From positions 1-32,647 of the IMG/VR virus record IMGVR_UViG_3300031746_000102: DNA of 32,647 nucleotides, one strand, 5' to 3'. The stretch comes from a virus. Below the pieces are notes generated by a model that made no database searches, was not told the origin of the DNA, and saw nothing but the letters and a program-made list of their open reading frames with translations. Both the position numbers and the translations under genes were made by a program. This document shows, piece after piece, positions 6,992 through 30,342 of this stretch. The first letter of the stretch is position 1, and every line of letters starts with the position of its first letter.

Positions 6992-7324
6992 ATGTCCTTC
7001 GTAGGAAAAACGCTCGCTGATGGTCAGCTGCCGACCACGCAGACCGCGATCTATACGGTGCCCGCGAGCACGCGCGCGATCATCAAGTCAGCCGACTTCG
7101 TCAACAATATCGCTACCGTCCAAGCGATCCAGTTATGGATCAAGCGATCAGGCGGGACGTCGAGGCGGGTGTGTGCCGTCAGCAACCTTTCTGTTGATGA
7201 AAAGATAGAAGCGGTCAGCGATGGCGAGTCTTGGAGCCTTGCCGCTGGCGATATCATTGAGGGGATGACCACGACTGCAGCCGCGGTCGACTACACCATC
7301 ACCGGGGCCGAGGAGACGCCGTGA
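6992..7324 (+). CDS. Small tail accessory protein
   Basis: A 110-residue protein. I choose ATG 6992 (MSFVGKTLADGQLP), one base after the preceding stop, over the in-frame codon at 6950, which lies inside the previous gene. It is beta-rich, with YTVPASTRAIIKSADFVNN and an AVSDGESWSLAAGDIIEG motif, a pattern shared by small beta-sandwich proteins encoded next to phage fibre genes. No membrane segment, signal peptide or enzymatic motif is visible. Its end overlaps the long repeat fibre gene as GTGA, suggesting coupled translation. It may be a decoration or fibre-attachment protein; the function is not known. Confidence 0.6.
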   Translation: MSFVGKTLADGQLPTTQTAIYTVPASTRAIIKSADFVNNIATVQAIQLWIKRSGGTSRRVCAVSNLSVDEKIEAVSDGESWSLAAGDIIEGMTTTAAAVDYTITGAEETP

Positions 7325-13752: not shown

Positions 13753-13884
13753 ATGGCGAAGATGAAGTCGAAGAAGCAGGTCGGTTTGCTGTTGAGCAAG
13801 GGCAGCCCACTGACGCCGGCTCAACAGAAGAAGCTCAAAGGCGAACTCCATTCTGGCGCGGTGAAGGTCAAGAAAGGAAAGTGA
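13753..13884 (+). CDS. 43-residue Lys-rich small protein
   Basis: A short open frame, MAKMKSKKQVGLLLSKGSPL followed by TPAQQKKLKGELHSGAVKV and a KKGK tail, fills the gap between glycosyltransferase and dehydratase. It ends in a GTGA overlap with the dehydratase start at 13881, which argues that it is translated. It is very basic and probably helical. The ribosome site is weak, so it may depend on coupling to the upstream gene, whose stop is four bases away. Function unknown; nucleic-acid binding or a coupling leader are possible. Confidence 0.6.
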   Translation: MAKMKSKKQVGLLLSKGSPLTPAQQKKLKGELHSGAVKVKKGK

Positions 13885-14921
13885 AGATACTCATTACCGG
13901 TGGGGCCGGGTTCATCGGGCACCACATCGTCGAGTACTTCCTGCGCCACTCGACGCATACGATGACTCTGCTGGACCGGCTCGATCTGTCTGGCAATCTC
14001 AATCGGCTCTCTGAAGTAGTCGCTCAGCAATACGTGAGCGCGTTCGACAAAGAGAACAAGAGCCGCGTTCGATTCATTTACCACGACCTGAAGTCGCCGA
14101 TCAGCGATCAGCTCGCGTATCAGATTGGCGCGCACGACATCATCTTGCACATGGCGGCAGCAACGCATGTTGATCGCAGCATCACGCACCCCATGGAGTT
14201 CGTGATGGACAACGTCGTCGGGACAACCAACATCCTCGACTTCGCGCGCAAGGTTGGGTGCCTGATGTTCATTCAGTTCTCGACTGACGAAGTGTTCGGT
14301 CCCGCCCCGCCCGGCGTCGCGTACAAGGAAGACGATCGCTACCGGTCAGGGAATCCGTACGCGGCATCCAAAGCTGGCGCGGAAGAGATGGCGATTGCCT
14401 ATCACAACACTTACGGCGTTCCGGTAGTTGTGACTCACACCATGAACGTTGTTGGCGAGCGTCAGCATCCAGAGAAGTTCGTTCCGCTGGTGATCTCAAA
14501 GGTAGCTCGCGAGCAGACCGTAACCATTCACGCTGACAAGACTCTCAAGGTGTCAGGCTCACGCTTCTACATCCACGCGCAGCACGTCGCCGAAGCGATT
14601 CGATTCATCATTCGCCACGGCTCGCCGGGCGAGAAGTACAACATCTGCGGACGCAAAGAGGTGAGCAACCTTGAGCTTGCGCAGCGGATTGCCGAAATCA
14701 TGGAGATCCCCCTTCTGTACAAGATGGTGGACTTCCATTCCAGTCGCCCCGGACATGACCTGCGTTATGCCTTGGACGGATCGAAGTTGCAGTCGATGGG
14801 CTTTGTGCCGAGTTCGGATGACGATCTCCGCCTCAGCGAAATTGTGTCTTGGTATACCAGCAACCCGGCGTGGTTACACACCTTGGGGGAGAAATTGAGT
14901 GATGAAGAAGAAGTTGCCTAA
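13881..14921 (+). CDS. NDP-sugar 4,6-dehydratase-like (RmlB-like SDR) enzyme
   Basis: A 346-residue extended short-chain dehydrogenase with a GTG start overlapping the small upstream gene. The NAD-binding GGAGFIG lies at residues 7-13. The dehydratase signature S134-T135-D136-E137-VFG, with the Asp/Glu pair used for water removal from C5/C6, is present, as is the catalytic Y160-xxx-K164 pair. The substrate-side RPGHDLRYALDGSKL motif near residue 290 is typical of dTDP-glucose 4,6-dehydratases. Length is normal for the family. The product would be a 4-keto-6-deoxy sugar nucleotide in the cytoplasm, which the neighbouring transferase enzymes could use. The exact NDP-sugar is not known, so I give no symbol. 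Confidence 0.8.
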   Translation: MKILITGGAGFIGHHIVEYFLRHSTHTMTLLDRLDLSGNLNRLSEVVAQQYVSAFDKENKSRVRFIYHDLKSPISDQLAYQIGAHDIILHMAAATHVDRSITHPMEFVMDNVVGTTNILDFARKVGCLMFIQFSTDEVFGPAPPGVAYKEDDRYRSGNPYAASKAGAEEMAIAYHNTYGVPVVVTHTMNVVGERQHPEKFVPLVISKVAREQTVTIHADKTLKVSGSRFYIHAQHVAEAIRFIIRHGSPGEKYNICGRKEVSNLELAQRIAEIMEIPLLYKMVDFHSSRPGHDLRYALDGSKLQSMGFVPSSDDDLRLSEIVSWYTSNPAWLHTLGEKLSDEEEVA

Positions 14922-15555
14922 GCCGCGCCCAGCGGCAAAAAAGAAGTCACCCAAAAAGATTCGGGTGATCAAACCTAAGCCGGTGGCACAAGAGATCAAG
15001 CTTGATCTGGGCTGCGGCATCAACAAGGTCGCCGGCTACATCGGCGTCGATGCGATGTCGTTCCCCGGCGTCGATGTCGTTACCGATCTGCGAGAGCCGT
15101 GGCCTTGGGAAGACGACAGCGTCACCGATGTGCATTGCTCGCACTTCTTCGAGCACCTCACCAATCCGGAACGCATTCACTTCTGGAACGAGCTGCATCG
15201 CGTGCTGAAGGTTGGTAAACAGGCGCGCGTGATAACTCCGCACTGGTCTCATGCATGCGCGTACGGCGATCCGACGCATCAGTGGCCGGGCGTCAGCGAG
15301 TGGACGGTGTTCTACACGAACGCTGCGTGGCGGGCGGTCAACGCGCCGCACGTGCCGCTGACGTGCGACTTCGACTGGCAGTACACGGGCAGCTGGGATC
15401 CGTGGCTGAACGACCGGAACCAAGAGTTCAAAATGGACAACATGCAACACAACGTGAACAGCTTCAGGGACATCACGTTCATCGTCTCGAAGCGCGACCC
15501 AGCCATGAACATGGCGCAGGCTCCAGTGCAGCCGTTGGCGAATACCGGAGGGTAA
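14902..15555 (+). CDS. SAM-dependent methyltransferase-like protein
   Basis: About 217 residues from ATG 14902; an in-frame GTG at 14899 is an alternative, and a GGGGGAGA ribosome site fits either. The gene overlaps the dehydratase end by 20 bases. The N-terminus is Lys/Pro-rich (residues 1-35). The Rossmann core begins KLDLGCGINK (motif I, residues about 33-42), then YIGVDAM (motif II acidic residue), VVTDLREPWPWED, and HCSHFFEHLTNPE, the usual post-core helix. The last part (WQYTGSWDPWLNDRNQE) is unlike common small-molecule methyltransferases. In this cassette a sugar or lipid methylation is plausible, but the substrate is not shown. Confidence 0.7.
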   Translation: MKKKLPKPRPAAKKKSPKKIRVIKPKPVAQEIKLDLGCGINKVAGYIGVDAMSFPGVDVVTDLREPWPWEDDSVTDVHCSHFFEHLTNPERIHFWNELHRVLKVGKQARVITPHWSHACAYGDPTHQWPGVSEWTVFYTNAAWRAVNAPHVPLTCDFDWQYTGSWDPWLNDRNQEFKMDNMQHNVNSFRDITFIVSKRDPAMNMAQAPVQPLANTGG

Positions 15556-15558
15556 TGC

Positions 15559-16077
15559 GTGACCATTACGGTACGCAGGGCTAAGCCGTTCGACGCCTCG
15601 AACCTGTGTCGATTGCTCGATCAGGCATACGAGGACTCGGGCGGCGGCGTCTACCCGGAGGTCGACCAGCGATCAATGCTGGCGTGGGTGGCTGACGTCC
15701 TTAGCCGTGGCTACGTGATCGTCGCGGAGAAGTCCGGACGGATCGTTGGATCGATCGCTTTGTGCGATTTCCAGTTCCCGTGGAACCCCAGATGGTATCT
15801 TTCAATGGAGTGGTTTTACGTGAGCCCTGCTTTCAGAGAGAATGGCACAGCTGACGCCCTCATAAAGGCCGCGCACGCTTTCGCTGACACCGGGAAACCG
15901 GGTGGTATTAGCATCCTCGCCGGGTTGACCTCGGCCAAGCATGCCGCAGTCAAAGATCGCCTTATGCGTATGAAGGGGTACACCTACATGGGTGGCACCT
16001 TTATGAGGAAGCCAAATGAGCTGGAAGTCGGGAAGCACGAAACAGACGTCGACGTACAAGCCCCCGTCGTGGGTTGA
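15559..16077 (+). CDS. GNAT family N-acetyltransferase
   Basis: A 172-residue protein with GTG 15559, six bases after a GGAGGG ribosome site. It shows the GNAT order: VRRAKPFDASNLCRLLDQAY (strand 1, helix 1), YVIVAEKSGRIVGSIAL (strands 2-3), MEWFYVSPAFRENGTADALI (strand 4 and a degenerate acetyl-CoA-binding loop, RENGTA in place of the usual R/QxxGxG/A), then GGISILAGLTSAKH and YTYMGGTFMRKP near the end. Typical substrates are amino groups, including amino sugars. The C-terminal 20 residues overlap the next gene by 62 bases in another frame. Catalytic competence is uncertain because of the altered loop. Confidence 0.65.
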   Translation: MTITVRRAKPFDASNLCRLLDQAYEDSGGGVYPEVDQRSMLAWVADVLSRGYVIVAEKSGRIVGSIALCDFQFPWNPRWYLSMEWFYVSPAFRENGTADALIKAAHAFADTGKPGGISILAGLTSAKHAAVKDRLMRMKGYTYMGGTFMRKPNELEVGKHETDVDVQAPVVG

Positions 16078-17077
16078 GGACGCATCGAAGTCCGCGCTCG
16101 CGAAAGCGACTGAGTACTCGAACAAGCCCTACGAAGACTATTCCACGGCGAGCCGGTTTGCGCCGCTCACCGGTAATGAGAACCAAGCCTACGATCGAGC
16201 CGCTGCCGGCGACCCGAACATTCAGGGCGACATGGCGGCGTCGCGCGCCGCAATTCAGCAGGGTCAGCGTCGCTTCACGGAAGCCGACATGGGCGCGTAC
16301 ATGAACCCCTACATCAAGGGGGCGCTGGACCCGGCCGCGCGCGAGCTGGAGAAGCGCATCGCGTCGAGCAGAAACGATCTCGCCAGCTCTCAATCAAGTC
16401 GCGGAGCCTTCTCGGGTTCGCGCGCCGTGCTTGCGGATCGTGAGATGGCTGCCGCTGGCGACCAGCAGATGAGCGACCTGTGGGGCAAGGGATACGCGAA
16501 CGCCTTCGAGAGCGCCTCCGACAAGTGGTACAAGGACCAGCAAAACCAGTTCACCGCGTCGGATCATTTCATGAGAAGCGCCGGTCTGGGTTCGGACCTG
16601 ATCGATGCCGACACTCGTCGACTCATGGGTACAGGTCAGATCAAGCGCAGCGTCGAGCAGTCGATGAAGGACTTCGATTACGGGAAGTTCATTGAGAATC
16701 GCGACTGGGGTGTCAAGCAAGCCAGCGTGATGATCGATGCGCTGCGCGGCATCAAGGGTTCCTACACAGAGCAGAACGTCACCAAGAGCGTAAGCAGCCC
16801 GTCAGGCCTGAGCACAGTCCTTGGCGCGATGTCGACGATTGCCGGGCTCGCCCAGCCAATGGGTGGTCAGTCTGCGGCCGGCTCGCAGCTGCTGTCTGGT
16901 GGCAACGCGATGCTCAGTGGCGGGCCTGCGCTTGGCGGCGCTGTAGGCGGCGGCGCGGCGATGTCTTCTGGAATGGGATCGGCAAGCATGTTTGGTGGTG
17001 CTGGGACCGCTGGAGTTGGCGCTGGTGCCGGCACCGGGGGGTCGATGCTTATTGAGGCCGGTGCGTTGCTCGCGTAA
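16016..17077 (+). CDS. Putative internal/ejection protein, smaller component
   Basis: A 353-residue protein starting at ATG 16016, supported by a GAGGA site at 16005-16009 inside the acetyltransferase gene. Residues about 100-150 carry the motif YMNPYIKGALDPAARELEK followed by SSRGAFSGSRAVLADREM, which is frequent in phage DNA-transfer or internal virion proteins. Charged helices follow to about residue 240. From about 255 to the end the protein is Ala/Gly/Ser/Met-rich and hydrophobic (STVLGAMSTIAGLAQ, then GGAVGGGAAMSSGMG), fitting a membrane-inserting or channel part. It is first of three proteins of rising size, as with T7 gp14-gp15-gp16. The ejection role is inferred from order and composition. 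Confidence 0.65.
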   Translation: MSWKSGSTKQTSTYKPPSWVEDASKSALAKATEYSNKPYEDYSTASRFAPLTGNENQAYDRAAAGDPNIQGDMAASRAAIQQGQRRFTEADMGAYMNPYIKGALDPAARELEKRIASSRNDLASSQSSRGAFSGSRAVLADREMAAAGDQQMSDLWGKGYANAFESASDKWYKDQQNQFTASDHFMRSAGLGSDLIDADTRRLMGTGQIKRSVEQSMKDFDYGKFIENRDWGVKQASVMIDALRGIKGSYTEQNVTKSVSSPSGLSTVLGAMSTIAGLAQPMGGQSAAGSQLLSGGNAMLSGGPALGGAVGGGAAMSSGMGSASMFGGAGTAGVGAGAGTGGSMLIEAGALLA

Positions 17078-18664
17078 GTGGCCGCCCTCGATAGCGATCC
17101 GTTTGATTACAGCGCGCGCTACAACGCGACGCTGACTCCGGAGGAGGAGGCCAAGTTTCAAGCATGGGCAAAGGATCACCCGAAGCAGGCGCGAGACACG
17201 TACGACTACGACGTCCGCGGCGCATGGAAAGCGAACCTTGTTGCGGAGCCCGGCAAACACGGGACCGATCGTTTCAAGAAACCCAACCACCCAACCTTCT
17301 CGACCCAGAGCGACCTGAATGGGAAAGAAGGGTTGCGGGGTGGCGTATGGGGCGAAGACAAGAGCGGGCAGGTGCAGTTCACCCCGTCAAAATTGAATCT
17401 ACAAATGCATTCACCGGAAGAACTCGCGCGCTACTTCAAGGAGCGAGAGCCCGGCGTAAAGTTGGTACTGCCGGAGGATCACATGGATAGTCAAGGCCTC
17501 ATGACCAAACAGCCTGACGGAAGTTATGAGGTGCGCCCCGGTGGCGCGCCTCTGACTGGGACGCAGGGGATTGGTGTGCTGAATCCAGCAAGCATTGCCG
17601 CCAACAGAGCAAAAGACCCGGCGCTCGCTATGGCGGATGCCGGCTCTAGCCCAACCTTGACCGCTTCCGCAAACGCAGCCCCGTTGGCAACGGCCGGAGG
17701 GAAGCCGGGGGTGCTGCCAAACAATCCAGCTCAGCCGCAAGCGGCGGCCGACCCGAAAGCCAAAGCAATGACACAGAAGGCGATCGATGATTCGACGCAC
17801 GTAGTCAAGACCGCTTCCCCGAAGGTCGCGCGTGATGTAACCCAGCAGTTCAGGGAAATGGGCGTAGACATCGCCGCTGCGTACAACGAGATGATCAAGA
17901 AGCTTGGCGGATTCAAGACGCCTGACCTGAAGATGAGCGAGTCCGATAAGGGTCTCTTCCTCATGGACTTCGGTCTTCGCCTGATGGCGAACTCGAACGG
18001 CTACTGGACCGAAAACGTTGGCAAAGCGGGCATGGGGACGCTGGCTGACTACAAGAGCGAGATGGACAGTCGCACCAAGGCTGCCACCGACTACAACACT
18101 GAGCTGGGCAAGACCGCTGGAGCGCTTGCAGAAAGGCAGAACACGGGACAGATGGCGGCGCTGGGCGATACGTCAATCGTCGGCGACGCGCAGGGCGGCG
18201 CGGTTGAATACAACCCATCGCTGGGCGTTCTCGGTGGGGCCTACAACCCAGACACTGGCGCGCCATTGAATGCGACCGGGCCAAAGGGTGCGGCCGGAAG
18301 GGCTCCGCCGCGTCCGCTCGACGTTCAGGTGAAGTACCAGATGCTGCTCGATGCTGGATATACGCCAGCCCGAGCGGCCGAGACGGCCATCTCCGGTCTC
18401 ACTGATGATAAGAAGTGGATGGAGGCGATGAAGTCCTACCTTGCCGCGTCTCAGTACACGGCGGAGTTCAACGTCGATGGCCGGGTGATTCCAAAAGACC
18501 AGATGACCGACGAGGACATCAACAAGTGGATCGCCAAGACGTACAAACTCAGCGGTCAAAGCGTCGTCAACCCGAATCCTGCGGCACCCGGCGCGCCACC
18601 CGGCGCAGCGCCCGCCCTCGACCCTGCGTATGAAGCGAAGCTGAAAGAAGCTGGCGTACTGTGA
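17078..18664 (+). CDS. Putative internal/ejection protein, middle component
   Basis: A 528-residue protein with GTG 17078 directly after the previous TAA; no good ATG lies nearby, and the ribosome site is weak. Residues about 10-85 include LTPEEEAKFQAWAKDH, YDYDVRGAWKANL and HGTDRFKKPNHPTFS, a segment I recognise from many phage virion proteins of this genomic position. The middle (160-240) is Ala/Pro-rich and low in complexity. Residues about 245-340 are helical, and the C-terminus is Pro/Ala-rich and ends YEAKLKEAGVL. It overlaps the giant gene as GTGA. By analogy with T7 gp15 it may be part of a periplasm-spanning ejection tube; this is inference. Confidence 0.6.
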   Translation: MAALDSDPFDYSARYNATLTPEEEAKFQAWAKDHPKQARDTYDYDVRGAWKANLVAEPGKHGTDRFKKPNHPTFSTQSDLNGKEGLRGGVWGEDKSGQVQFTPSKLNLQMHSPEELARYFKEREPGVKLVLPEDHMDSQGLMTKQPDGSYEVRPGGAPLTGTQGIGVLNPASIAANRAKDPALAMADAGSSPTLTASANAAPLATAGGKPGVLPNNPAQPQAAADPKAKAMTQKAIDDSTHVVKTASPKVARDVTQQFREMGVDIAAAYNEMIKKLGGFKTPDLKMSESDKGLFLMDFGLRLMANSNGYWTENVGKAGMGTLADYKSEMDSRTKAATDYNTELGKTAGALAERQNTGQMAALGDTSIVGDAQGGAVEYNPSLGVLGGAYNPDTGAPLNATGPKGAAGRAPPRPLDVQVKYQMLLDAGYTPARAAETAISGLTDDKKWMEAMKSYLAASQYTAEFNVDGRVIPKDQMTDEDINKWIAKTYKLSGQSVVNPNPAAPGAPPGAAPALDPAYEAKLKEAGVL

Positions 18665-21600
18665 ACGAAGAAGAGCTTCGTAAGCTTGCTCAAGAGGCGC
18701 ATCAACGCGGAGATAAGCCGCACGCTCTGGCGCTCGCCAACAAGATCCTTGAGCTGCGCAAGGCGAGTTCCGCGCCCGGCGAGCCAGCGCTCGGAACTGC
18801 TGGCGATCTCGGCAAGTCGGCGGAGATCAGCGCGCTTATGCCTGTGTCGAGCACGCTCGACACCCTTGAGCGCGGCTCCCGTCAATTCGACCGCACAGCC
18901 AAGGGTGCTCTTTGGTCCGACGAAGGCGGCGTTCTTGATCCGGTAAACGTGAAGGACACTATGGGGACCGCCCTTTGGGGCGCTAACCAAGTCCTCAACG
19001 TAGGTACGGCGCTCGCGGGCAAGGCGTACACCGCCATTCGTGGCGAGAAGCCGCCCGAGTCGAAGTTCCTCAGCGACAAGATGGAACAGCTGAAGGCTGA
19101 GCGTAGCGCCCCTGTGAAGGCGCAGTACGACTCGGTGATGGATGCTGCGAACAATTCCGACAGCATCATCGACTTCGTGAAAAAGGCCCCGTCTCCCCTT
19201 GATGCGGGGGCGGGCTACTTCCACGCGTTCGTTGAACAGATCGGCAATACCGCTGCGTCGATGGTGGCAACCAAGGGCGCATCAATGATTAAGGCTGCGC
19301 GCGTACGCAGCAAAATGGCAAAGCTCGGTGCTACCAGCGAAGAGGTTCGTAGACAGGTTCTGAAGGACGCAACCGCGGTTGGTGTCGCTGTCGGAACCGC
19401 GACTGAGTACCAGATGGTTGCGAGTCAGGTTGGTCAACAGATCGACCAGCAGATGATGGCGATGCCGCAGTCGTCGTGGGACAAGAACGAGGACTACAAG
19501 AGGCTTCGCGAACACACCACCGATCAGGAGGCCAAACAGATCGTCACCGATCGCTTGGCTCGGCAGTACGGGCGCATCGCTGGCGTTGGCTCTGCGCTCA
19601 TCAACATGCCCTTCTCTACCATGCTGGCGAAAGCTGGGGCCGGCAAAGGCGGGCTCAAGCATTGGGCTCTGGGCACCGCCACGGAAACAGTCAGCGAGGG
19701 GTCGCAAGAGTTCTGGGAAGGATTCAACCAGAACCTCGCCGCACAGAAAGTGGATCCAGATACCGAGCTGCTGAAGGGGCTCGGCGGTCAGGCCGCGTTC
19801 GGCGCGTTGATGGGCGGAGCGATGGGCGCTGTCGCATCGGTCTCGCCACGCTCGAAGGACGAGAAGGATCTCGCGAAGGCCGGCATCGATGACTACGAGA
19901 AAGCAGTAAAGGTCCGCGCCAAGCTTGAGCAGACCATGCGCGAGCCGAAGACCTACAACAAGATGTCTCCGGCGCAAAAGATCGAGACATTCCGAAAGCT
20001 TGAAGACGCGCAGCTGAAGGAGAACGAACACTTCCTTGATGTCGCGAAGGGGATGCGCAAGATCCTCACGCGCAACGATGCTCAGCCCGAAGAGTTCGAT
20101 CAGATCGACGTGCTTGAGAAGATCGCGCGCGATCATATCGACAGGATCACATCGAAGCGCGAGATCCTGAAGACCGCCGCCGAGGAATCCTCCCGCCAAC
20201 AAGCTGTCGCTGACCAAGTTACTGAGCTGCGCAGCGCGCGCGATCAAGGGCTCGCTTCTATAGACGACGAGAAGCGGTGGCTCGGCAGCCTGCAGCATCT
20301 GGCGGGCGGTAATGTTCTTGAAGAAGAGGCGGCCAAGGAGTTGCTCGGTAAGAAGTGGATCCGTTACCCGGACCTGACTAAGAGCCACGCTGTGCTCACC
20401 CCTTCGGGTCGGCGCGCGATCTCTGGTCTTACGCTATCGATTCAGAATCACGAGGGGCAGGGCGCGCGCACTGAAGCCGCTCTGGAGACCGTCTCGGAAA
20501 CGAAACAGCCGGTTCCGGAAGTTCCGACAGAGCGCCGCGTCAACGAAAACGTGGACCGCCGCGCCAAGCTTGAGGAGATGAAGAAGCTCGATCCGGAGGC
20601 GTTCCATCGAGAGATCTTCGTCGACAAGAAGAGCGGGATCCTGAACAAGCGCGCCTACGTTGAGGCAGAGAAGACACCTTCCCCGCACACAGTGTCGATC
20701 GACGCTGACTCCCTCGCGTGGGTGAACGACAACATGTCGCACCTGAAGGGCGACGAGATGCTGGAACGCATTGGCCGCGTCCTTGGCGAGGAGTTCGGGG
20801 AGGACGCGTATCACGTCTCAGGAGATGAATTCATTGTCCGCGGAGACGACGCCGCCAAGCTCGAAGAGGGCATGCAGCGCGCCAAGCTTCGCCTGCGCCG
20901 GATGCGCGTACAGGACGCGCAGCGTGTTGTTACGCCAAGCATCACGTGGGGCATTGGCGCAAACAGAGAAGCCGCTGACGTCGTGATGAACGAGGCCAAG
21001 GTGCGCCGCCTGAAAGAAGGCAAGCGCGCCGACCGTAAGTTGCCGCCCGTTGGTATGCGGCCAAAGCCCAATGCGGCTGCCGCTGCAGGGGCAACAACCG
21101 AGCAGACGACCGACGTACCTCCGGTGCCGCCAGATGTATTGGCGTCGGAGGACAACCTCGACGACGACGAAGCTTGGAAGGAAGAGGTGACCGAGACGGC
21201 CCTTACGGCGTCGACCTTCGCTGAGCGCATGCGCAGCATGGCGATGAAGATGCGCAACCTCTACAAGGCATCAGTCGGAGAGCAGCGCGCGCTCGAAGAC
21301 AGTCCTACCGCTCCACAATTCAACACGCGTCGACTTACGGATCTCGCTGCCGAATGGCGGATCCTGCAGGCGCAGGCGGTCGACGAATTCGAGGCGTGGC
21401 GTTATGAGGTCACTCCCGATACGGAGCTGAATGAGGCGCTCGTCGCCAAAGCGCGTTTCCGATATCACAACCTGCCGGCAAACATCCGCGCGGTTTACGA
21501 CGGCAAGGCTCGCGACTTCTACAGCTTGATCCTTGCGGAGCCATTCCTGACCGGGCAGGACGCGTGGGTGATCGAGTACACGGGCCTGCTTGCGTATCGT

Positions 21601-24600
21601 GTTTGGGATGAGACTTTGCTCGCTCGACAGCTGAAGCTCCCCGCCCCGATGACGACAATCGGTGGCGGCAAATTCACGCACGGCATCATCTCAACGTCAG
21701 ACATGGCTGAGCGTATAAGGCAGCTCGTGCAGGACTCGGGTGATGCGTACGCTGAAAATGATGCGAACAATCAATTCCTGAGCGAGTTCCTGCTCAGTGA
21801 TCTGCGCAAAGAGGCGACCAACCGCAACCGTCAGCTACAGATCAAACCAGACGAGGCGAAGTGGTCGTCCATTCACCTGCAGCCGGAAGGCGCGGTGCGC
21901 CCAGTGACTGCCGCGGACGTGTTGATCTATCGCGTCGAGCGCTACATCACCAAGGGTTACGAGAGCGGCGGGCAGCACCCGTTCGTTATCAACCAGAAAG
22001 AGATGACGGCATATCGTGAATCCGACGACAAGCTTGCGTCGTGGTACGCGCGCATGCACGCCGCAACCGACTCGGTCATGGCTCCGGGGTTTTACGACAG
22101 GGTTGCAAAGGGGCGATACATCGAAGTAGCGGTGGGCGGAAAGTCCGTTCGAGGCAGAGTCATCTCATCCACCGAAAAGGCGCTCACCGTAGAGTGGGTT
22201 GGCCCGCAGGCGTGGGATCCGGATGAGGGGCAGGTCTCGAACACCGCTCGATTCGCCAAGTCGACTGGACTCCAGATCAGTCAGCGCGTTTCGAAGGATG
22301 GAATTCCAATTGATGAGCAGATGTTCCGTTGGCCCGGACAGGCTCGGCTTGGTCGCGTCCATGTCAATGGGCACTGGCGCACCGCAAGGGAACTAAGCAG
22401 AGAGATTGACGCGCTCGACAAGGAGATCGAGAACCGCATGCCGCGCACGCTCCAAAGCTGGCGCGCAGGTCAGCGGAAGAACTCCGCAACGAGTGAGGAG
22501 CACGCGGCTGCGGAAGCGATCATTCGCAACATGACGGCGGGGATCAACCTCCCGGCTGACTACATCTATGCTCATTCGAATGGCACGACCATCCCAAGGG
22601 CGATGCAGGGATGGCAGGCGAACCGACCCAACGCGAGACGCTATGGATGGTGGGACCAGAACGACGTCTCTGACGGAATTCATCTGGTGCTCAGCGACAT
22701 CAAGAAGGGCGTTGAGGCCGGCGTGTTCCCCAGCTTCGAGCACGGTGTTGCAGAGACGATTGCTCACGAGCTGTTCGGCCACTTCGGAATCCGCGGTCTC
22801 ATCGGTAATGACCCAGATCTGATCAACATCATGAAGGCGGTAGTCGAGGCGTTCCCGCAGGAAGCCGCCTACTTCGCGTCCGAGTTCGGGTACACGCCAC
22901 AGGTTGCTGGTGAAGAGATCATCGCCGCGCTCGCGCAGCGAATACTGATCGACAACATGAAGCTGTCGACTAAGCAGTTGAGCATCTGGAAGAAGTTTTT
23001 GTTCTGGTTGCGCGAGGCGATGGCGAAGCGCGGCTGGCATAAATGGATGAAGGGTCCGCTTGCGTTCAACGACGAGCAGCTCGGCTACATGGTAGCGCGC
23101 GCTCAGGAGGCACTACAGCGATCGGCCAACTGGAAGTACAAGCACGGCGAAGGGCGCGTCAGCACGCCGCTGTCGATGCGCGACAGCGATATGTTCCAGT
23201 CTGCCCTGCTGCACGACATGAGTCGCTTCCGCCCGACCAGCAAAGCGGAACGCAAGGCCGGCATGCCGGTTGGTGTGCCAGTCATTCCCGATGAGGCCAC
23301 CGCTGGGGGATTCCTCAACGCATTCCGTGCGCTGATCAAGGACAAGGACAGCGCCGTCAAGCAGCTGGACCTTGATACCGCCGCGCTTGAGGAGTGGCTG
23401 GAGAATCTGCGTAACGCGGACGTCTTGGCTTACGCTCCAGAACAACTCGAACAGATCATTGGCGAGGTTCCGAATGACGTCAAAGAATTCGCTGCTGGGC
23501 TGATCAACCCGGCGCTATCAGTAAGCCAAGGCATGGCTGTTGTGATGGGTCTGCAGGAGTGGGCTTCGAAACCTCTTCATAAGAAGGCGCGCATTCCATC
23601 GAGCATGATCGAGACGTATTTGATTGACGCAGTTCCGGCAGTGATGGTTCACCCAGCTGCCGGCTACCGGAACGGTGACTACAACCCGTTGGTTGGCCGC
23701 GACGACGAGGGCAACTGGCTGCCTGATCCCGCGATGGATCCGGGCAATCCGCAAGGCGAAGGCGTTGGTTGGTGGAGCACCGCGCTATCCGGCAAGAACG
23801 TGCGCAACTACTTGCTGGCGCAGGTCAATCCGAAAACACGCGCCCCGTATGTCGAGCCGCACTGGACCAAAGCACCGAAGTCGAAGGGAGAGAACGTCTA
23901 TCTGCACATTCGTGTGTCTGATACTCAGGATGCTGAGGCGGTATTCGGCACAGCGACCCCCGCCCCGAACCCAGCCAAGACGGGGCGTGCGTATCACGTT
24001 GGCGAGGTGCAGTCGACGTGGAATCAAAACCAAGGTCGCTTCATTCAAGGGGAGATGGACAAGCGCAACACGCAAGCGATGGCGCATATGGTCTCGCGCG
24101 AGCTGGCAGCTGGCGGCTTGAATGGATTATTTGGGGAGATCGGGCGACAGCTTGCCGCAGGGGTTGAGTTCGGTCACGAGAAAGCGAAGAAGATGCGGGC
24201 GGAGAACGACGGGACCAGCACCTTCTACCGCGCCCTGCAAAAAGCACAGCTGAAAAACTACGCGTCGCACATCGAGAAGACCAAGCTTGAGGCACAGCGT
24301 TCGCTTCGAATTCTTAGCGAAAAAACGATCAGCCCAAACGATATCCGGTGGGACGAGTTCAAGCGCCTGAGCGTGATGATCGCTTCATACGACAACCTGA
24401 TCGAAATCTTGGAAGATAAGTTTGATCCGGTTGGCCGTCACAACCCTAATGGGGCGCTCGATTTTCCAGAGACGCAGGAGTCTTTGCGGTCGATATTCGG
24501 CAACATCACGCAGATGTTCTTGAACGGAAACACCGAACACACGCACGCGGCATTTCTTGCCGGTGACGACATCCTGTTTGAGCGATTCGCCAATTCGCTC

Positions 24601-27600
24601 CTTGGGTTCTTTGCGGCAGGCGGCGGCCTTCAGACGGGCGACAAGAAGGGTTATGACGCGCTCGGCGACGTTATCGAAAAGCTGAAGTCGGAGCGCGCGC
24701 TGGGCGATTCGTTGCGCATCGTGATTCCCGATGGCGTGTTGCCGTGGACGCGCGAGATTCGGGCGCAGGGGCAAGTAGGGCCGGCAGCCAACCCGTTTGA
24801 GTACGTGTGGACGAGCCTCGGGCTCAAGTACTCCATGAAGGATATCTTGCGAGGCAAGTCGTTGGACATTGGTGTACCGCTAATAGACGCGGACATCTGC
24901 GGCGACCTGTTGGATAGTTCAATCGCCGTATCGCAAGCCTCCAACGGCGACATGGTCATCGACATTCCGTGGGGTTCCAATTTCGAGGCGAACCTGCTTG
25001 AGCGGAGAGTAGCCGGGAAGATCTTCGAAGCTGGCTTTCGCGAAGCGTTCGCCGATCTCGCCAGACTTACCGAGCATGGTCGCGAAGAAGACGACCGTAT
25101 GCGTACGAGTTCGATCGTGAACGTACTTCGCAACGCGTCAATGCGCAACGAGGAGCAGTGGGCCGACACCATCGCCGGAAAGATGATGAACACCACGGGC
25201 CACATGACAGCGCCGCGGCACATCCCGCGGGTATCGACGCTGATGTCTGGATTCCCTGTTCGCGCCCTGAACGCGCTCGCCAAAGAGGATGCGGATGTTC
25301 GAAACCAACTCGACAATTTGCACCTTGGCGGCATTCCATCGCTCGAAGAGTTTTCCGAAGATTGGGTGGGTTCCGTTCTGTTCAACTACGTCCTCAATCC
25401 ACCAGAGGATGACCCGAAGATCTGGAGTCGCATAAGCGACGAAAACGGGCCGCTCGACGAAAGGAACACGGAATATCTCCTGACGTTGGCCGAGGTATCG
25501 GATACCAAGATTCCGTTGGATGAGGCCAAGGGTGCGCTGGAGAGCGCGCGTCGCAAGTGGCTCATGGACCAGCACTTCCATGTTTCCGACCAAGACAACG
25601 AGCACGCATTGTTTGCGTACGCGCGGCAAGAGACCGCCTCGCGTTGGTTCAATCTTGAGGGCGGAACTGTCCTAAGGACCGTTCCCAGAAAGTGGGACAA
25701 ACAAACCGGCGTGGTGACAGCGTCGTATCAGGTCTACGTGACCGCTGTTGATACGGATGAAGAGGGCGTGTTCGGGCCAACGAATGTCAAAGGTTGGTTC
25801 ATCTACGACGACCTCTACAATCGAATCGAGCAGGATGCCGTTTTCGACACTGACGACGACATGACGCAGGTGCGCAGCGAGGCCGCTAGATGGCTTACGA
25901 CGCTATGGATGTACCACGAGGTCTTGCCTGAGCTGAGCGTCATGCAGAGCCTGTACGGCGACAACCTCGCCCACCACAGCGCTCATGAAGCAATTGCTTG
26001 GCTTCCCGAGAAACTTGACTGGGAGGCGGTAGCAAAAAATCTCACCGAGAAGACGCAATACATTTCGGTCCACGATCCCGCCGACTTCAAGAAGGTCTAC
26101 AAGCAGGTTCGCGATGCCGCGACTAAGTCGGCCATGGGGGTGGATCAATACGCCGTCGACGAATCCGTGTTCAGCCACGATGACGTGTGGCGCACGCACG
26201 CGCTCAAATTCATTCTCATGGATGCGATCCGTCATGGCTACGCAAAGATCCAGTGGCAGCCGGGCGAGGCCAACACGTCGCGCGGAGGGGTGAGCCCGAA
26301 CCTGATCGACAATGTCGACAGTATCAAGTTCAGGCGTGCGCAGATGGACGGGAAAGAAGTCTACGTCGTCAAGTACCACGCTGAGCAGATCTACATTCCG
26401 ACAGAGTCGCTAGACGCTGTGTTCGGAATTGATGTCGCCGACTTCATGAAGAAAGCGGTTCCTCCTGAAGGGCCGGCAATAGACGCCCCGATACTCTCCG
26501 TCTCGAAGGCTGGTGACAGATGGGTGGTGATCGATAAGTCCGATCGCATCTACCAACCGTACAACACTGGCGCGGTGGTAGCGACCTTCGATACAGCGGA
26601 AGAGGCGTGGGGCTATGCGGGAGAGCGAGCGGCTCAGCCCGGTGAGGTTCAGGCCAACAAGCCTGTGTACATGAGCGCTACGCGCGCCGACTTCAACGGC
26701 CCCATCAATGTCGTGCTCGCGCGCAGGTCAAACGACAAATTTGACCCCATGTCGAGTTTCATTCCGCACAACGCGCGCGTTATTCAGGGCGGCCGGATCG
26801 CATACGACAGGGCGCTGGTGAAGACGTGGAATAAGTACCTGAAGAACTTCGGCGTTCAGATCTCCTCCGGCGCTGCAGCTGTCACAGAGGAGGCTGCCCA
26901 AAAGGCGATCAAGGGCGAGGGCGGCAGGCGCGTCAACTTCATCACGCCAACGTACGAGAACGCGTATCCGAACCCGCGCGTGGCAAAGCTCGATGGGGAA
27001 GACCTCTACGTGCTGTTGTCCGACAACAAGCAGATCGACAACACGGTTTATCAAAACGAAGAGGCGGCCTACATAGCGCTCGAAGCGAGGATCGCTGCGT
27101 GGGGCGGGTCGATCGATAGGGAGGCGGTCAACAAAGCGATCAAGGTCCACGAGATCGTGATCAACGATGCGTTGCGCGAGTACTTCAAGGAAGGCTCGAT
27201 CCCGCTGTTTCATCAATCACCAACGCAACCGCCGAACAGGCTGACGGCCGAAGAGCGGCTGATGACAAAGGTTGGGGTCAAGAGGCGGAAGCGCCCCTTG
27301 AAGCAAGTGGTTGCCGAGGCGATGGAAAACATCCGCAACATCGCGCACCAGAGAATCTTCGATCGCTTCCATGGAATCAGGCAGGCGTTCGTTGACGCGC
27401 AGCTGTGGGACACGGTAGCTGACGAGAAGAACCCGTACTTTGCTGCGCGCCTTGGAACCAGTCTCGACTCGCACGTGAAGTCGGCGCTTGAGTACGGCGT
27501 TCCGGTTTGGAAAAACGGCGTGTTCTCAGCTGATGGCAAGGGGTTGCTGGAGGTACTCAGTCCCATTGCGCACGAAACCAGTCGGTGGGGTGCGTTCATG

Positions 27601-30342
27601 GCGGCTCGACGCGCGCAGCGACTACTTGGCGAGGGCAAGGAGAACCTCCTTGAAGCCGATGAGATCGCTGCTGGCCTCGCGCTTGGGGTGAAGTATCCGA
27701 TCTTCCAGCAGGTGGCTGACGAATACGCTGCATGGAACAAGCGGTTGCTCGACTTCGCGCAAGAGTCGGGGATCATCAATGCGGAGACGCGCGCTCTTTG
27801 GGAGCACGCGGACTACGTTCCGTTCTACCGCATCAGTGACGATCGCCTGATGGGCGCGCTGGGCCGGAACATTGGGCTGGCGAATCAGAAGAACCCCATC
27901 AAATCCCTCACGGGCGGCACCGACTATCTGGGCGACATCGTCACCAACATCATGGTGAACATGGTCAACCTGATCGACGCATCGGTGAAGAATCGCGCGG
28001 CGTTGCTGGCGGTCGACGGGCTTGCCGGATCCGGAAAGATCCAGCTGTCCGCCAGCCAAGGCGCGCAGACGCTTCACCCGAAGCTGATGGCGCAGATGGT
28101 TGGCCCGAACATGATTGACGGAGCTGACATCGGGCCGAAGCTGAAGGCGATCCAGAATCAATTTCTCGTGACGGACTCGGCGCTGACCGCGGCGATCCCC
28201 GGCATGACCGCGAACCGCATGACCGCAACGATGACGGGCAACCGAGCCAAGATATCGCTCACCGAGGTCAACCAGATCCTCGAAGCGATAGAGACGGTCT
28301 CCGGTGCCGGGAACGTCGTGCCGCGCGCAACCGTGCTCACCGACAACGTCATATCGCGGGTCGGGCTGGCGCGCGAGCAGAAGCTGGTGCCAGCGGCAGA
28401 GATCAAGCGCTCGCTGCAGCAGGCCGGCGTGAGCGCGAAGCTGATCAACTCGATACCGCAGGCGGCCTTCGAGGGGTTGCGCATGATGTGGACCCTGTCG
28501 CCGCCCAAGGCGAAGGGAACCTTGTCCGTGATGCGCGATGGCAAGGTGGAGTTCTACCACACGCCAGACCAACTGCTCTTCGACGCGATGACCTCGCTCA
28601 ACATGCCAAGATTTGGATGGTTCGTTGCGGCGCTGCGCTACCCGAAGCGCTTGCTGACGTCGACCATCACGCTGGATCCGGGCTTCATGATCGCCAACTT
28701 CCTCCGCGACTCCGTGTCGTCGTGGGTTATCGCGCGCGACTGGCAGACGCCATTCGTGCATGCAGCGAAGGGTGCGGTCGACGCGTATCGCGAGGACAAG
28801 GACTTCCGGACGATGATGTCCGCTGGCGCGGCGTTCGAGAACGGCTATCTGAACTACGGCGACCCTGACGCAGTACACCGCCTGATGCGCAGGAGCATGC
28901 GCAAGAAGGGTTACCGGGCGAGCCTGCTGGATTCCCCCAAGAAGCTCTACGAGGCGTATCGCGCGATCGGCAGCGCCACGGAGAACGCTTCCCGCATGGC
29001 AGTGATGCGCGCCGCCAAACGCAACGGCGCGAGCGATGTGAGGGCCGCGTACGAGGCGAAGGATCTGATGGACTTCTCGATGGGCGGCTCATCGAAAGTG
29101 ATTCAGTTCCTCATCCAGACCGTGCCGTTCTTCAATGCGCGTCAGCAAGGCATCTACCGGCTCGGGCGCGGGGCTGGGCTACGCGGTGAGGGCGGCGCTG
29201 GTGCCTTCGCCCTGCGTGGCATGTTGGTGGCTCTGGCGGGCCTTGCGCTGTTCTGGAAGTACAAAGACGACGATCGCTACAAAGATCTGGAGGAGTGGGA
29301 TAAGGACACCAACTTCCACTTCTGGATCGGTGACGAGCACTACCGCCTGCCCAAGGGGTTCGAGGTTGGAGCGATCTTCAACACGATCCCTGAGCGCGCG
29401 GTGGAGTACTTCTTCAACGAGTCGGGCGACGACGAGAAGCTCCTGTGGGACCGCTTCGCGTTCATGGTCACGCAGACGTTTGCGTTCAACCCGATCCCGC
29501 AGGCGTTCGTGCCTTTGGTGGAAACCGCTGCCAACTACAACTTTTTCACTGGCCGATCGATAGCAAATGAGTATGAGATCAGCGCCAAGTTGCCGCAGGA
29601 CCAGTACCGTTTCTACACGAGCCCCACGATGATCGAGCTGGCGCGCCACATTCCCGGCGAGGTTCAGTTTCGGGCGCAGAAGCTTTCGTCGCCGCTGTTC
29701 CTGCAAAACCTCTACGGAGGATATTTTGGCACGCTGGGACGATACGTCCTCATGGGGTCGGATGCTATTGTGCGCTCGGGGTTCGGGTATCCGGACATCC
29801 CAACGCTCGGTCCGCAGGACTACCCGGTGCTCGGCCGCTTCTCGCGCGGGCCAGATGTGCCACGGCGCACGAAGTACGAGGAGCAGTTTTACGATCTGCT
29901 CTCCAAAGTGAAGCAGGTCGACGGCAGCTTCAAGTACTACGAGGCGAAGGGGCCAAAGACGCGGGTCCAAGAGACGTTCGAAAAGTTTGGCGACTACGTG
30001 CGGATTTCGGAGGGCGTCAACGATATCCAGAAGGAAGTGACGCAGATCAATTCCGAGATGCGTGACGTGTACAACTCGACCTCGAAGTCGAGCGATGAAA
30101 AGTACACGAAGCTCAACCAAATGCAGGCGAAAAAGAACCTGCTGCTCAAAAAGGGCGCGGCGCTCAGGCCGAACGCGGCGGAGTCACCTGACGTGCGGTC
30201 GAGCGTTCAGAAGAAGCTTTCTTCCGCGGACCCGCCAGAGAAGATTTCGGAGAACATCAAGGGGGTTGCCCCTACAATGGCGGCGTTGATTTTGGACGTG
30301 GCTGGGATGTCCATGCGCGACGCTGAGAGCCTGATGTCATGA
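18661..30342 (+). CDS. Giant polyvalent internal virion/ejection protein (3893 residues)
   Basis: One uninterrupted 11.7-kb frame with GTG start overlapping the previous stop. Estimated mass is above 400 kDa. Order of regions: a helical N-terminus (HQRGDKPHALALANKILELR); Ala/Gly-rich membrane-active-looking segments with ETVSEGSQEF (342-351) and a GGAMGA stretch (385-390); a GGDEF domain (about 640-795) between low-complexity linkers; a HEXXGH zincin-like region (about 1345-1425); a two-part region recalling large polyvalent protein domains (EVQSTWNQNQGR at 1782-1793, and a GYAKIQWQPGE half near 2526); a VPFYR motif near 3053; a C-terminal region like LPD38 (TVPFFNARQQG at 3487-3497, a hydrophobic stretch 3521-3532, FEVGAIFNTIPER near 3567). 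No lysozyme or RNA polymerase motifs were found. Packaging and ejection are inferred from place and size. Confidence 0.85.
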   Translation: MNEEELRKLAQEAHQRGDKPHALALANKILELRKASSAPGEPALGTAGDLGKSAEISALMPVSSTLDTLERGSRQFDRTAKGALWSDEGGVLDPVNVKDTMGTALWGANQVLNVGTALAGKAYTAIRGEKPPESKFLSDKMEQLKAERSAPVKAQYDSVMDAANNSDSIIDFVKKAPSPLDAGAGYFHAFVEQIGNTAASMVATKGASMIKAARVRSKMAKLGATSEEVRRQVLKDATAVGVAVGTATEYQMVASQVGQQIDQQMMAMPQSSWDKNEDYKRLREHTTDQEAKQIVTDRLARQYGRIAGVGSALINMPFSTMLAKAGAGKGGLKHWALGTATETVSEGSQEFWEGFNQNLAAQKVDPDTELLKGLGGQAAFGALMGGAMGAVASVSPRSKDEKDLAKAGIDDYEKAVKVRAKLEQTMREPKTYNKMSPAQKIETFRKLEDAQLKENEHFLDVAKGMRKILTRNDAQPEEFDQIDVLEKIARDHIDRITSKREILKTAAEESSRQQAVADQVTELRSARDQGLASIDDEKRWLGSLQHLAGGNVLEEEAAKELLGKKWIRYPDLTKSHAVLTPSGRRAISGLTLSIQNHEGQGARTEAALETVSETKQPVPEVPTERRVNENVDRRAKLEEMKKLDPEAFHREIFVDKKSGILNKRAYVEAEKTPSPHTVSIDADSLAWVNDNMSHLKGDEMLERIGRVLGEEFGEDAYHVSGDEFIVRGDDAAKLEEGMQRAKLRLRRMRVQDAQRVVTPSITWGIGANREAADVVMNEAKVRRLKEGKRADRKLPPVGMRPKPNAAAAAGATTEQTTDVPPVPPDVLASEDNLDDDEAWKEEVTETALTASTFAERMRSMAMKMRNLYKASVGEQRALEDSPTAPQFNTRRLTDLAAEWRILQAQAVDEFEAWRYEVTPDTELNEALVAKARFRYHNLPANIRAVYDGKARDFYSLILAEPFLTGQDAWVIEYTGLLAYRVWDETLLARQLKLPAPMTTIGGGKFTHGIISTSDMAERIRQLVQDSGDAYAENDANNQFLSEFLLSDLRKEATNRNRQLQIKPDEAKWSSIHLQPEGAVRPVTAADVLIYRVERYITKGYESGGQHPFVINQKEMTAYRESDDKLASWYARMHAATDSVMAPGFYDRVAKGRYIEVAVGGKSVRGRVISSTEKALTVEWVGPQAWDPDEGQVSNTARFAKSTGLQISQRVSKDGIPIDEQMFRWPGQARLGRVHVNGHWRTARELSREIDALDKEIENRMPRTLQSWRAGQRKNSATSEEHAAAEAIIRNMTAGINLPADYIYAHSNGTTIPRAMQGWQANRPNARRYGWWDQNDVSDGIHLVLSDIKKGVEAGVFPSFEHGVAETIAHELFGHFGIRGLIGNDPDLINIMKAVVEAFPQEAAYFASEFGYTPQVAGEEIIAALAQRILIDNMKLSTKQLSIWKKFLFWLREAMAKRGWHKWMKGPLAFNDEQLGYMVARAQEALQRSANWKYKHGEGRVSTPLSMRDSDMFQSALLHDMSRFRPTSKAERKAGMPVGVPVIPDEATAGGFLNAFRALIKDKDSAVKQLDLDTAALEEWLENLRNADVLAYAPEQLEQIIGEVPNDVKEFAAGLINPALSVSQGMAVVMGLQEWASKPLHKKARIPSSMIETYLIDAVPAVMVHPAAGYRNGDYNPLVGRDDEGNWLPDPAMDPGNPQGEGVGWWSTALSGKNVRNYLLAQVNPKTRAPYVEPHWTKAPKSKGENVYLHIRVSDTQDAEAVFGTATPAPNPAKTGRAYHVGEVQSTWNQNQGRFIQGEMDKRNTQAMAHMVSRELAAGGLNGLFGEIGRQLAAGVEFGHEKAKKMRAENDGTSTFYRALQKAQLKNYASHIEKTKLEAQRSLRILSEKTISPNDIRWDEFKRLSVMIASYDNLIEILEDKFDPVGRHNPNGALDFPETQESLRSIFGNITQMFLNGNTEHTHAAFLAGDDILFERFANSLLGFFAAGGGLQTGDKKGYDALGDVIEKLKSERALGDSLRIVIPDGVLPWTREIRAQGQVGPAANPFEYVWTSLGLKYSMKDILRGKSLDIGVPLIDADICGDLLDSSIAVSQASNGDMVIDIPWGSNFEANLLERRVAGKIFEAGFREAFADLARLTEHGREEDDRMRTSSIVNVLRNASMRNEEQWADTIAGKMMNTTGHMTAPRHIPRVSTLMSGFPVRALNALAKEDADVRNQLDNLHLGGIPSLEEFSEDWVGSVLFNYVLNPPEDDPKIWSRISDENGPLDERNTEYLLTLAEVSDTKIPLDEAKGALESARRKWLMDQHFHVSDQDNEHALFAYARQETASRWFNLEGGTVLRTVPRKWDKQTGVVTASYQVYVTAVDTDEEGVFGPTNVKGWFIYDDLYNRIEQDAVFDTDDDMTQVRSEAARWLTTLWMYHEVLPELSVMQSLYGDNLAHHSAHEAIAWLPEKLDWEAVAKNLTEKTQYISVHDPADFKKVYKQVRDAATKSAMGVDQYAVDESVFSHDDVWRTHALKFILMDAIRHGYAKIQWQPGEANTSRGGVSPNLIDNVDSIKFRRAQMDGKEVYVVKYHAEQIYIPTESLDAVFGIDVADFMKKAVPPEGPAIDAPILSVSKAGDRWVVIDKSDRIYQPYNTGAVVATFDTAEEAWGYAGERAAQPGEVQANKPVYMSATRADFNGPINVVLARRSNDKFDPMSSFIPHNARVIQGGRIAYDRALVKTWNKYLKNFGVQISSGAAAVTEEAAQKAIKGEGGRRVNFITPTYENAYPNPRVAKLDGEDLYVLLSDNKQIDNTVYQNEEAAYIALEARIAAWGGSIDREAVNKAIKVHEIVINDALREYFKEGSIPLFHQSPTQPPNRLTAEERLMTKVGVKRRKRPLKQVVAEAMENIRNIAHQRIFDRFHGIRQAFVDAQLWDTVADEKNPYFAARLGTSLDSHVKSALEYGVPVWKNGVFSADGKGLLEVLSPIAHETSRWGAFMAARRAQRLLGEGKENLLEADEIAAGLALGVKYPIFQQVADEYAAWNKRLLDFAQESGIINAETRALWEHADYVPFYRISDDRLMGALGRNIGLANQKNPIKSLTGGTDYLGDIVTNIMVNMVNLIDASVKNRAALLAVDGLAGSGKIQLSASQGAQTLHPKLMAQMVGPNMIDGADIGPKLKAIQNQFLVTDSALTAAIPGMTANRMTATMTGNRAKISLTEVNQILEAIETVSGAGNVVPRATVLTDNVISRVGLAREQKLVPAAEIKRSLQQAGVSAKLINSIPQAAFEGLRMMWTLSPPKAKGTLSVMRDGKVEFYHTPDQLLFDAMTSLNMPRFGWFVAALRYPKRLLTSTITLDPGFMIANFLRDSVSSWVIARDWQTPFVHAAKGAVDAYREDKDFRTMMSAGAAFENGYLNYGDPDAVHRLMRRSMRKKGYRASLLDSPKKLYEAYRAIGSATENASRMAVMRAAKRNGASDVRAAYEAKDLMDFSMGGSSKVIQFLIQTVPFFNARQQGIYRLGRGAGLRGEGGAGAFALRGMLVALAGLALFWKYKDDDRYKDLEEWDKDTNFHFWIGDEHYRLPKGFEVGAIFNTIPERAVEYFFNESGDDEKLLWDRFAFMVTQTFAFNPIPQAFVPLVETAANYNFFTGRSIANEYEISAKLPQDQYRFYTSPTMIELARHIPGEVQFRAQKLSSPLFLQNLYGGYFGTLGRYVLMGSDAIVRSGFGYPDIPTLGPQDYPVLGRFSRGPDVPRRTKYEEQFYDLLSKVKQVDGSFKYYEAKGPKTRVQETFEKFGDYVRISEGVNDIQKEVTQINSEMRDVYNSTSKSSDEKYTKLNQMQAKKNLLLKKGAALRPNAAESPDVRSSVQKKLSSADPPEKISENIKGVAPTMAALILDVAGMSMRDAESLMS
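20578..21045 (+). other. GGDEF (diguanylate cyclase-type) domain inside the giant protein
   Basis: Residues about 640-795 follow the GGDEF plan: D655-x-x-SGILNKR, D681-ADSLAWVN689-D, G697-D698, S720-GDEF, SITWGIG (760-766) and K785 in the final helix. Measured against PleD, the spacings from the metal Asp to the guanine-binding Asn (8) and from that Asn to the next Asp (9) are the same; the Asn-to-signature spacing is two shorter. The first Gly of the signature is Ser. No RxxD inhibitory site precedes it. The domain is somewhat shorter than usual. Activity is not proven. Confidence 0.8.
22660..22940 (+). other. HEXXGH zinc-peptidase-like domain inside the giant protein
   Basis: The motif AHELFGHFGIRG (H1369, E1370, H1374) is followed 49-50 residues later by GEEIIAAL (E1418, E1419). 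HEXXGH plus a downstream EE pair resembles the M49 (dipeptidyl peptidase III) zinc site, and HE..GH..LRG motifs also occur in large phage and plasmid polyvalent proteins. Preceding strands (DGIHLVLSDI, near residue 1340) fit a zincin active-site layout. A protease role, on host proteins or on the ejected protein itself, is inferred. Confidence 0.6.
29041..29420 (+). other. LPD38-like C-terminal region of the giant protein
   Basis: The order TVPFFNARQQG (3487-3497), a hydrophobic segment (MLVALAGLALFW, 3521-3532), DLEEWDKDTNFHFWIGDEHY and LPKGFEVGAIFNTIPER is the signature I associate with the LPD38-type domain of large phage proteins thought to be ejected. The hydrophobic segment is long enough to enter a membrane. 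The label comes from memory of the family pattern. Confidence 0.55.

Follow-up and report, generated by a model that had tools for sequence, protein, structure and literature searches.

The giant gene and its surroundings

The stretch of viral DNA analysed here (32,647 nucleotides, in the following called the window) carries on its plus strand an open reading frame for a very large protein (Table 1). Families of virion structural proteins are encoded at positions 1184-6073, on the same strand as the giant gene and the gene for a predicted DNA ejection protein upstream of it. Thus, the giant gene is located near virion and late genes and its product is large and multidomain with an LPD-type domain, as is characteristic of polyvalent proteins. 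Between these groups of genes, a 1,429-aa protein with many SAGTQSxSTGTMxFxNSN-type repeats (7321-11610) is probably a tail fibre or appendage. It is followed, ahead of the ejection protein gene, by genes for an NAD-dependent epimerase-like protein, a methyltransferase-like protein and an acetyltransferase (phrog_1249) at 13881-16077, which perhaps have a role in glycan modification.

Table 1. Features of the giant gene and its upstream neighbours. Conservation counts for the GGDEF domain refer to viral relatives retrieved by motif patterns.
Feature	Position	Strand	Evidence or conservation
Predicted DNA ejection protein	16016..17077	+	phrog_4287, E 3.9e-18; two genes upstream of the giant gene
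528-aa protein	17078..18664	+	Immediately 5' of the giant gene; stop overlaps its GTG start
3,893-aa polyvalent-type giant protein with GGDEF domain	18661..30342	+	Open frame, GTG start, translation; LPD38 and GGDEF matches
GGDEF domain as modelled, residues 626-809	20536..21087	+	AlphaFold2 pLDDT 95.9, pTM 0.88
D681, metal aspartate (PleD D327 position)	20701..20703	+	71/71 distinct viral relatives
N689, guanine contact (PleD N335 position)	20725..20727	+	71/71
D698, guanine-specifying aspartate (PleD D344 position)	20752..20754	+	D 63, N 5, T 3 (n=71)
SGDEF signature, residues 720-724	20818..20832	+	GDE 71/71; first residue S 52, G 18, A 1
K780, conserved lysine (PleD K442 position)	20998..21000	+	68/69 rows having a residue there
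Pro/Ala/Thr/acidic low-complexity linker 3' of the domain, residues about 796-850	21046..21210	+	Sequence
HELFGH, zincin-type HExxxH motif, residues 1369-1374	22765..22782	+	HExxxH in 15/15 relatives
E1418-E1419, glutamates downstream of HExxxH	22912..22917	+	15/15 relatives
C-terminal platform	27343..30153	+	Common to GGDEF-less Vibrio phage 1.232.O giant and PTXU04 gp25; 31-34% identity, stretches of about 200-600 aa, E down to 8e-92
LPD38 domain (PF18857), residues 3537-3723	29269..29829	+	133.6 bits, E 1.1e-38

The giant had been described as an ejection-type protein in the original prediction. In agreement with this, it is of a kind that is found in virions, as judged from its LPD38 domain, the nearby DNA ejection gene and the precedent of gp69 of the Burkholderia phage JC1, an LPD38 giant that, with 51 unique peptides, came second in the protein list of purified virions (PMC9144972). 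By analogy, the window giant is likely packaged in the virion. For the window protein or any relative with an embedded GGDEF domain, a literature search retrieved no report of enzymatic activity, of a bound ligand or of peptides detected in particles by mass spectrometry. The protein gp25 of the Escherichia phage PTXU04 and the giant of Vibrio phage 1.232.O are, like JC1 gp69, LPD38-type giants encoded after structural genes, and these two also share the C-terminal platform and the HExxxH motif with the window protein. In contrast to the latter, both were tested and have no GGDEF domain, and the 1.232.O giant as well as JC1 gp69 differ from it further by helicase- and methylase-type domains. 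Knock-down of PTXU04 gp25, which has been called a putative polyvalent protein, sharply lowers plating efficiency (PMC11879866); peptide fingerprinting of PTXU04 assigned only four bands, gp25 not being among them (PMC6563267).

The HExxxH motif and the downstream glutamates form the pattern that one would look for in a zincin-like peptidase, a domain typical of polyvalent proteins. A model of this region reached a pLDDT of 71 and a best Z of 4.3, with some zinc peptidases among the low-scoring structures, and a sequence search of the PDB with the zincin-like region gave no match. Residues 1-620 of the giant have no relatives at 1e-5 among annotated phages.

A GGDEF domain with a cyclase fold

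Positions 20578-21045 encode residues 640-795 of the giant, for which a GGDEF domain, the module of the enzymes that synthesise the bacterial signal c-di-GMP, had been proposed. Analysed in isolation, the domain matches PF00990 with 25.2-25.5 bits, above the Pfam cut-off of 23.8, while the full-length giant scores 19.6 bits and stays below it; the match is therefore weak in the context of the whole protein. It nevertheless goes far beyond chance. All 69 aligned relatives match PF00990 at E <= 0.01 (best 7.9e-19). When a profile built from them was run against the PDB, 52 distinct sequences scored at E <= 1e-3 (from 9e-19), nearly all of them GGDEF enzymes. An AlphaFold2 model of the domain, built with 69 related viral sequences, is of high confidence and cyclase-like. 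Its best structural match is 3ign, a GGDEF domain with bound c-di-GMP (Z 16.5, 1.8 A, 135 residues), and comparison with PleD (1w25) gave a Z of 15.1 and 2.8 A over 138 aa. Re-alignment to the PDB yielded Z scores of about 15 for PleD (1w25, 2v0n), WspR and others, in agreement with Foldseek, and many of the structures nearest to the model are diguanylate cyclases solved with c-di-GMP or GTP. The giant phage protein thus contains a genuine GGDEF domain of the cyclase fold, in which D681, D722 and E723 are predicted by fold and sequence register to occupy positions equivalent to the metal site of the cyclases.

Active-site residues and flanking linkers

The residues read from the sequence beforehand were found at the positions given, i.e. 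SGILNKR from residue 658, D681, N689, D698, SGDEF at 720-724 and SITWGIG ending at 766, with the PleD-like spacings of 8 between D and N and 9 between N and D. The window protein thus possesses the signature and metal aspartate as well as the guanine-reading pair N689 and D698 of diguanylate cyclases. The domain is also flanked on both sides by low-complexity stretches (residues about 608-627 and 796-850), which bears out the suggestion of a separate module. One assignment had to be corrected. K785, originally named as the key lysine, lies at a position that varies in the family (A 24, R 15, K 9) and was rejected as the catalytic residue; the conserved lysine is K780.

Other well-conserved columns of the family are D683 (70/71), G697, G787 (69/69), R789 (Arg in 64/69) and R792 (Arg in 63/69). 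A basic Lys/Arg/Gly tail at residues 780-796 (20998-21048) with K780, R783, G787, R789 and R792 replaces the bacterial GRN motif. With respect to the phosphate-binding residues K442 and R446 of PleD, the lysine is conserved and GRN is absent; R783 or a later arginine may substitute for R446. The position of PleD K332 is occupied by A686 in the window and by Lys in 64 of the 71 relatives.

The RxxD product-inhibition site is an optional feature of diguanylate cyclases. Its predicted loss proved correct, as the window has EFGE at this place and 70 of the 71 relatives lack the site; the one RxxD upstream of the signature among the 71 viral sequences looks like a chance match. Concerning the signature itself, ECA3270 is an example of an active enzyme with SGDEF, and VCA0965 lost its activity when the first signature residue was changed to Ser (PMC3974145). 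Hypr enzymes carry Ser or Thr at the position of PleD D344. The window protein has D698, which argues against a Hypr-type specificity. D698 fits a specificity for GTP, since a Ser to Asp exchange at this base-reading position turned the Hypr enzyme GacA into a pure diguanylate cyclase (PMC6456294).

A viral GGDEF subfamily

Scans of viral contigs yielded 80 loci with 71 distinct domain sequences, the window included. As this set was fetched with the motif patterns DSLKWVND and GDEF, the conservation of these motifs could be inflated; all 23 sequences fetched solely via DSLKWVND, however, have GDE[FY], and all 22 fetched solely via GDEF have the metal aspartate and the asparagine. K780, G787, R789 and R792 lie outside the fetching patterns. 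Embedding in larger proteins of up to >4,000 aa is seen for 61 of the 71 sequences, the other 10 being stand-alone, and the least variable columns of the 61 embedded relatives are D681, N689, G697, G721, D722, E723 and K780. Given these near-invariant active-site residues, often in giants that have nothing else in common with that of the window, selection appears to keep the enzyme working.

In a maximum-likelihood tree the viral set is split from 40 sampled bacterial GGDEF domains, picked with the same motif patterns, by a branch with a support of 100/97. The window domain is therefore placed, on sequence grounds, in a viral subfamily separate from the bacterial GGDEF domains sampled. With bacterial cyclases of the PleD, WspR and DgcZ type it has the fold and active-site residues in common (Z 14-16.5), and it differs from them in the absence of the I-site, in its C-terminal basic tail and in its separate branch. 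The stand-alone viral forms fall on one branch (100/95), apart from the embedded forms.

In the annotated phage collection, the domain is matched by stand-alone proteins of YuA-like Pseudomonas phages and of Bordetella phages as well as by five unannotated faecal phage contigs. A cultured phage carrying the embedded form did not turn up among the annotated phages. The closest annotated relatives are YuA gp44 and the "diguanylate-cyclase GGDEF domain protein" of Vojvodinavirus (Mesyanzhinovviridae) with about 30-33% identity. These share DxDSLKW(V/I)ND, GDEF and the conserved Lys/Arg/Gly tail with the window protein but are stand-alone proteins of about 155 aa, whose genes have anti-restriction genes as neighbours in a non-virion cluster. 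Stand-alone GGDEF genes immediately precede anti-restriction genes in YuA and in Bordetella phage CN1 (L009 7986-8944, L010 8049-9640). Bordetella LK3 lysogens, which carry the stand-alone form, make more biofilm, with the gene not isolated as the cause (PMC8471281).

The GGDEF domain as an exchangeable module

Among 79 viral loci with the C-terminus of the window protein, the 11 with a GGDEF domain are closest (43-51% identity), and the 68 without it, eight of which are cut off upstream, are more distant (30-38% identity). The window GGDEF domain matches all 68 other giants compared by BLAST, only 25 of which share at least 100 aa outside of it. When 19 further giants were aligned, almost every invariant column lay inside the domain. 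The partner domains found in 29 GGDEF giants include LPD38, InPase, RadC, LPD22, ART-PolyVal, helicases and methyltransferases. These comparisons show the domain, which is common to giants that are mostly unlike elsewhere and have varied partners, to be an exchangeable module.

A Pfam InPase (inorganic pyrophosphatase) domain is located upstream of the GGDEF domain in 9 of the 29 giants scanned (e.g. residues 588-726 in L027 and 621-754 in L049). A partnership in which the pyrophosphatase clears the by-product PPi was considered and rejected: a search with one InPase domain led to 80 viral ORFs that encode InPase, and only four of these contain the GGDEF domain. As InPase thus occurs mostly without GGDEF, there is probably no special link between the two.

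GGDEF domains in giant phage proteins are as such not new, because Iyer et al. described them in 2017 in polyvalent (pro)phage proteins, with WP_004096050.1 of Acetonema longum as an example (PMC5512222). These proteins resemble the window protein in that GGDEF is fused to other domains in a (pro)phage giant which also has a zincin-like metallopeptidase, and essentially the same role is proposed for them: they would interfere with nucleotide signalling of the host or respond to rival elements. The domains are termed "not very widespread" there, whereas 61 of the 71 distinct viral proteins here are embedded forms and the fusion turns out to be frequent in phages. The portion of that paper available describes no GGDEF subfamily, no conservation of residues and no exchange of the domain. 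Our work adds that the viral subfamily is large and coherent, that its active site is conserved, that the I-site is lost and that the domain is exchanged among giants. A literature search found no test of the 2017 proposal. With a well-delimited domain, obvious residues for mutagenesis and numerous natural variants, the subfamily now makes the proposal directly testable.

Possible function of the embedded domain

We consider it most likely that the domain is an uninhibited, GTP-using cyclic-dinucleotide synthase that would be delivered with the DNA. In the full form of this reading, to which we give a probability of about one half, the giant polyvalent protein is packaged in the virion and enters the host together with the phage DNA. 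The C-terminal LPD38 part and the metallopeptidase-like region would constitute a widespread delivery platform, and the GGDEF domain one of many exchangeable cargo enzymes on it. Inside the host, the domain would act as a dimer or after its release by proteolysis, bind two molecules of GTP and convert them to c-di-GMP, free of product inhibition because the I-site is absent. The result would be a brief push on host signalling, i.e. on motility, envelope, biofilm or nucleotide-based defence, in favour of the phage. It counts against this reading that cyclases must dimerise and that the domain sits inside a protein of 3,893 aa, that not every enzyme tolerates SGDEF, that Ala takes the place of PleD K332 in the window copy and that the GRN motif is replaced by the basic tail. 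If the domain is active and injected, such phages would alter a host second messenger already upon entry, ahead of any expression of their own genes, which has a bearing on the ways in which phages may interfere with defence based on cyclic nucleotides.

An improbable, though serious, alternative is that the domain binds GTP or c-di-GMP without synthesis and serves as a sensor, switch or sponge within the giant. Some GGDEF domains do bind nucleotides without cyclase activity, and the missing I-site, the Ala at the K332 position, the Ser as first signature residue of the window copy and the divergence evident from the full-length Pfam score could be read in this way. Degenerate sensor GGDEF domains, however, normally lose GG(D/E)EF, whereas GDE, D681, N689 and K780 are essentially invariant among the 71 relatives, including residues needed for catalysis and not for mere binding.

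Synthesis upon entry would also be the wrong description if the giant were made late and its GGDEF domain acted in the cell that makes it or in a lysogen. Such a role has been suggested for YuA gp44, whose annotation reads "contains diguanylate-cyclase domain; putative role in host cell conversion". The location of the stand-alone relatives in non-virion clusters adjoining anti-restriction genes is in line with this. We regard it as unlikely for the window protein, however, as the genes for structural and DNA-ejection proteins precede that of the embedded form, LPD38 giants are known from virions, and stand-alone and embedded forms are found on separate branches.

Another product directed against nucleotide-based defence (cGAMP, a linear dinucleotide or a Cas10-like oligonucleotide) would be compatible with the GDEF or GDEY of all 71 sequences, the only motif that goes together with Ser or Thr at the base-reading position (PMC6456294), with the Thr and Asn found there in three and five relatives, and with the cyclic-nucleotide anti-phage systems known, such as Panoptes (PMC12657218), but is unlikely for the window protein given D698, the driver of GTP specificity in the GacA mutants, and sequence and PDB structure neighbours that are diguanylate cyclases and led us to reject a Cas10-like identity.

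Returning to synthesis of c-di-GMP by an injected giant, a broader version can be put forward tentatively, with the odds against it: many unrelated phages may share a dedicated, virus-specific GGDEF subfamily that moves between injected giants, cyclic-dinucleotide synthesis at entry may be widespread, and some lineages, those of the Thr type, may make cGAMP-like signals instead of c-di-GMP. The Asn at the base-reading position is found in the GGDEF domains of L014, L017, L036, L038 and L072. The most surprising point is that three relatives among the viral giants (L005/L006, L034/L048 and L059) pair Thr at this position with a retained GDEF, a combination as in the cGAMP-making Hypr enzymes.
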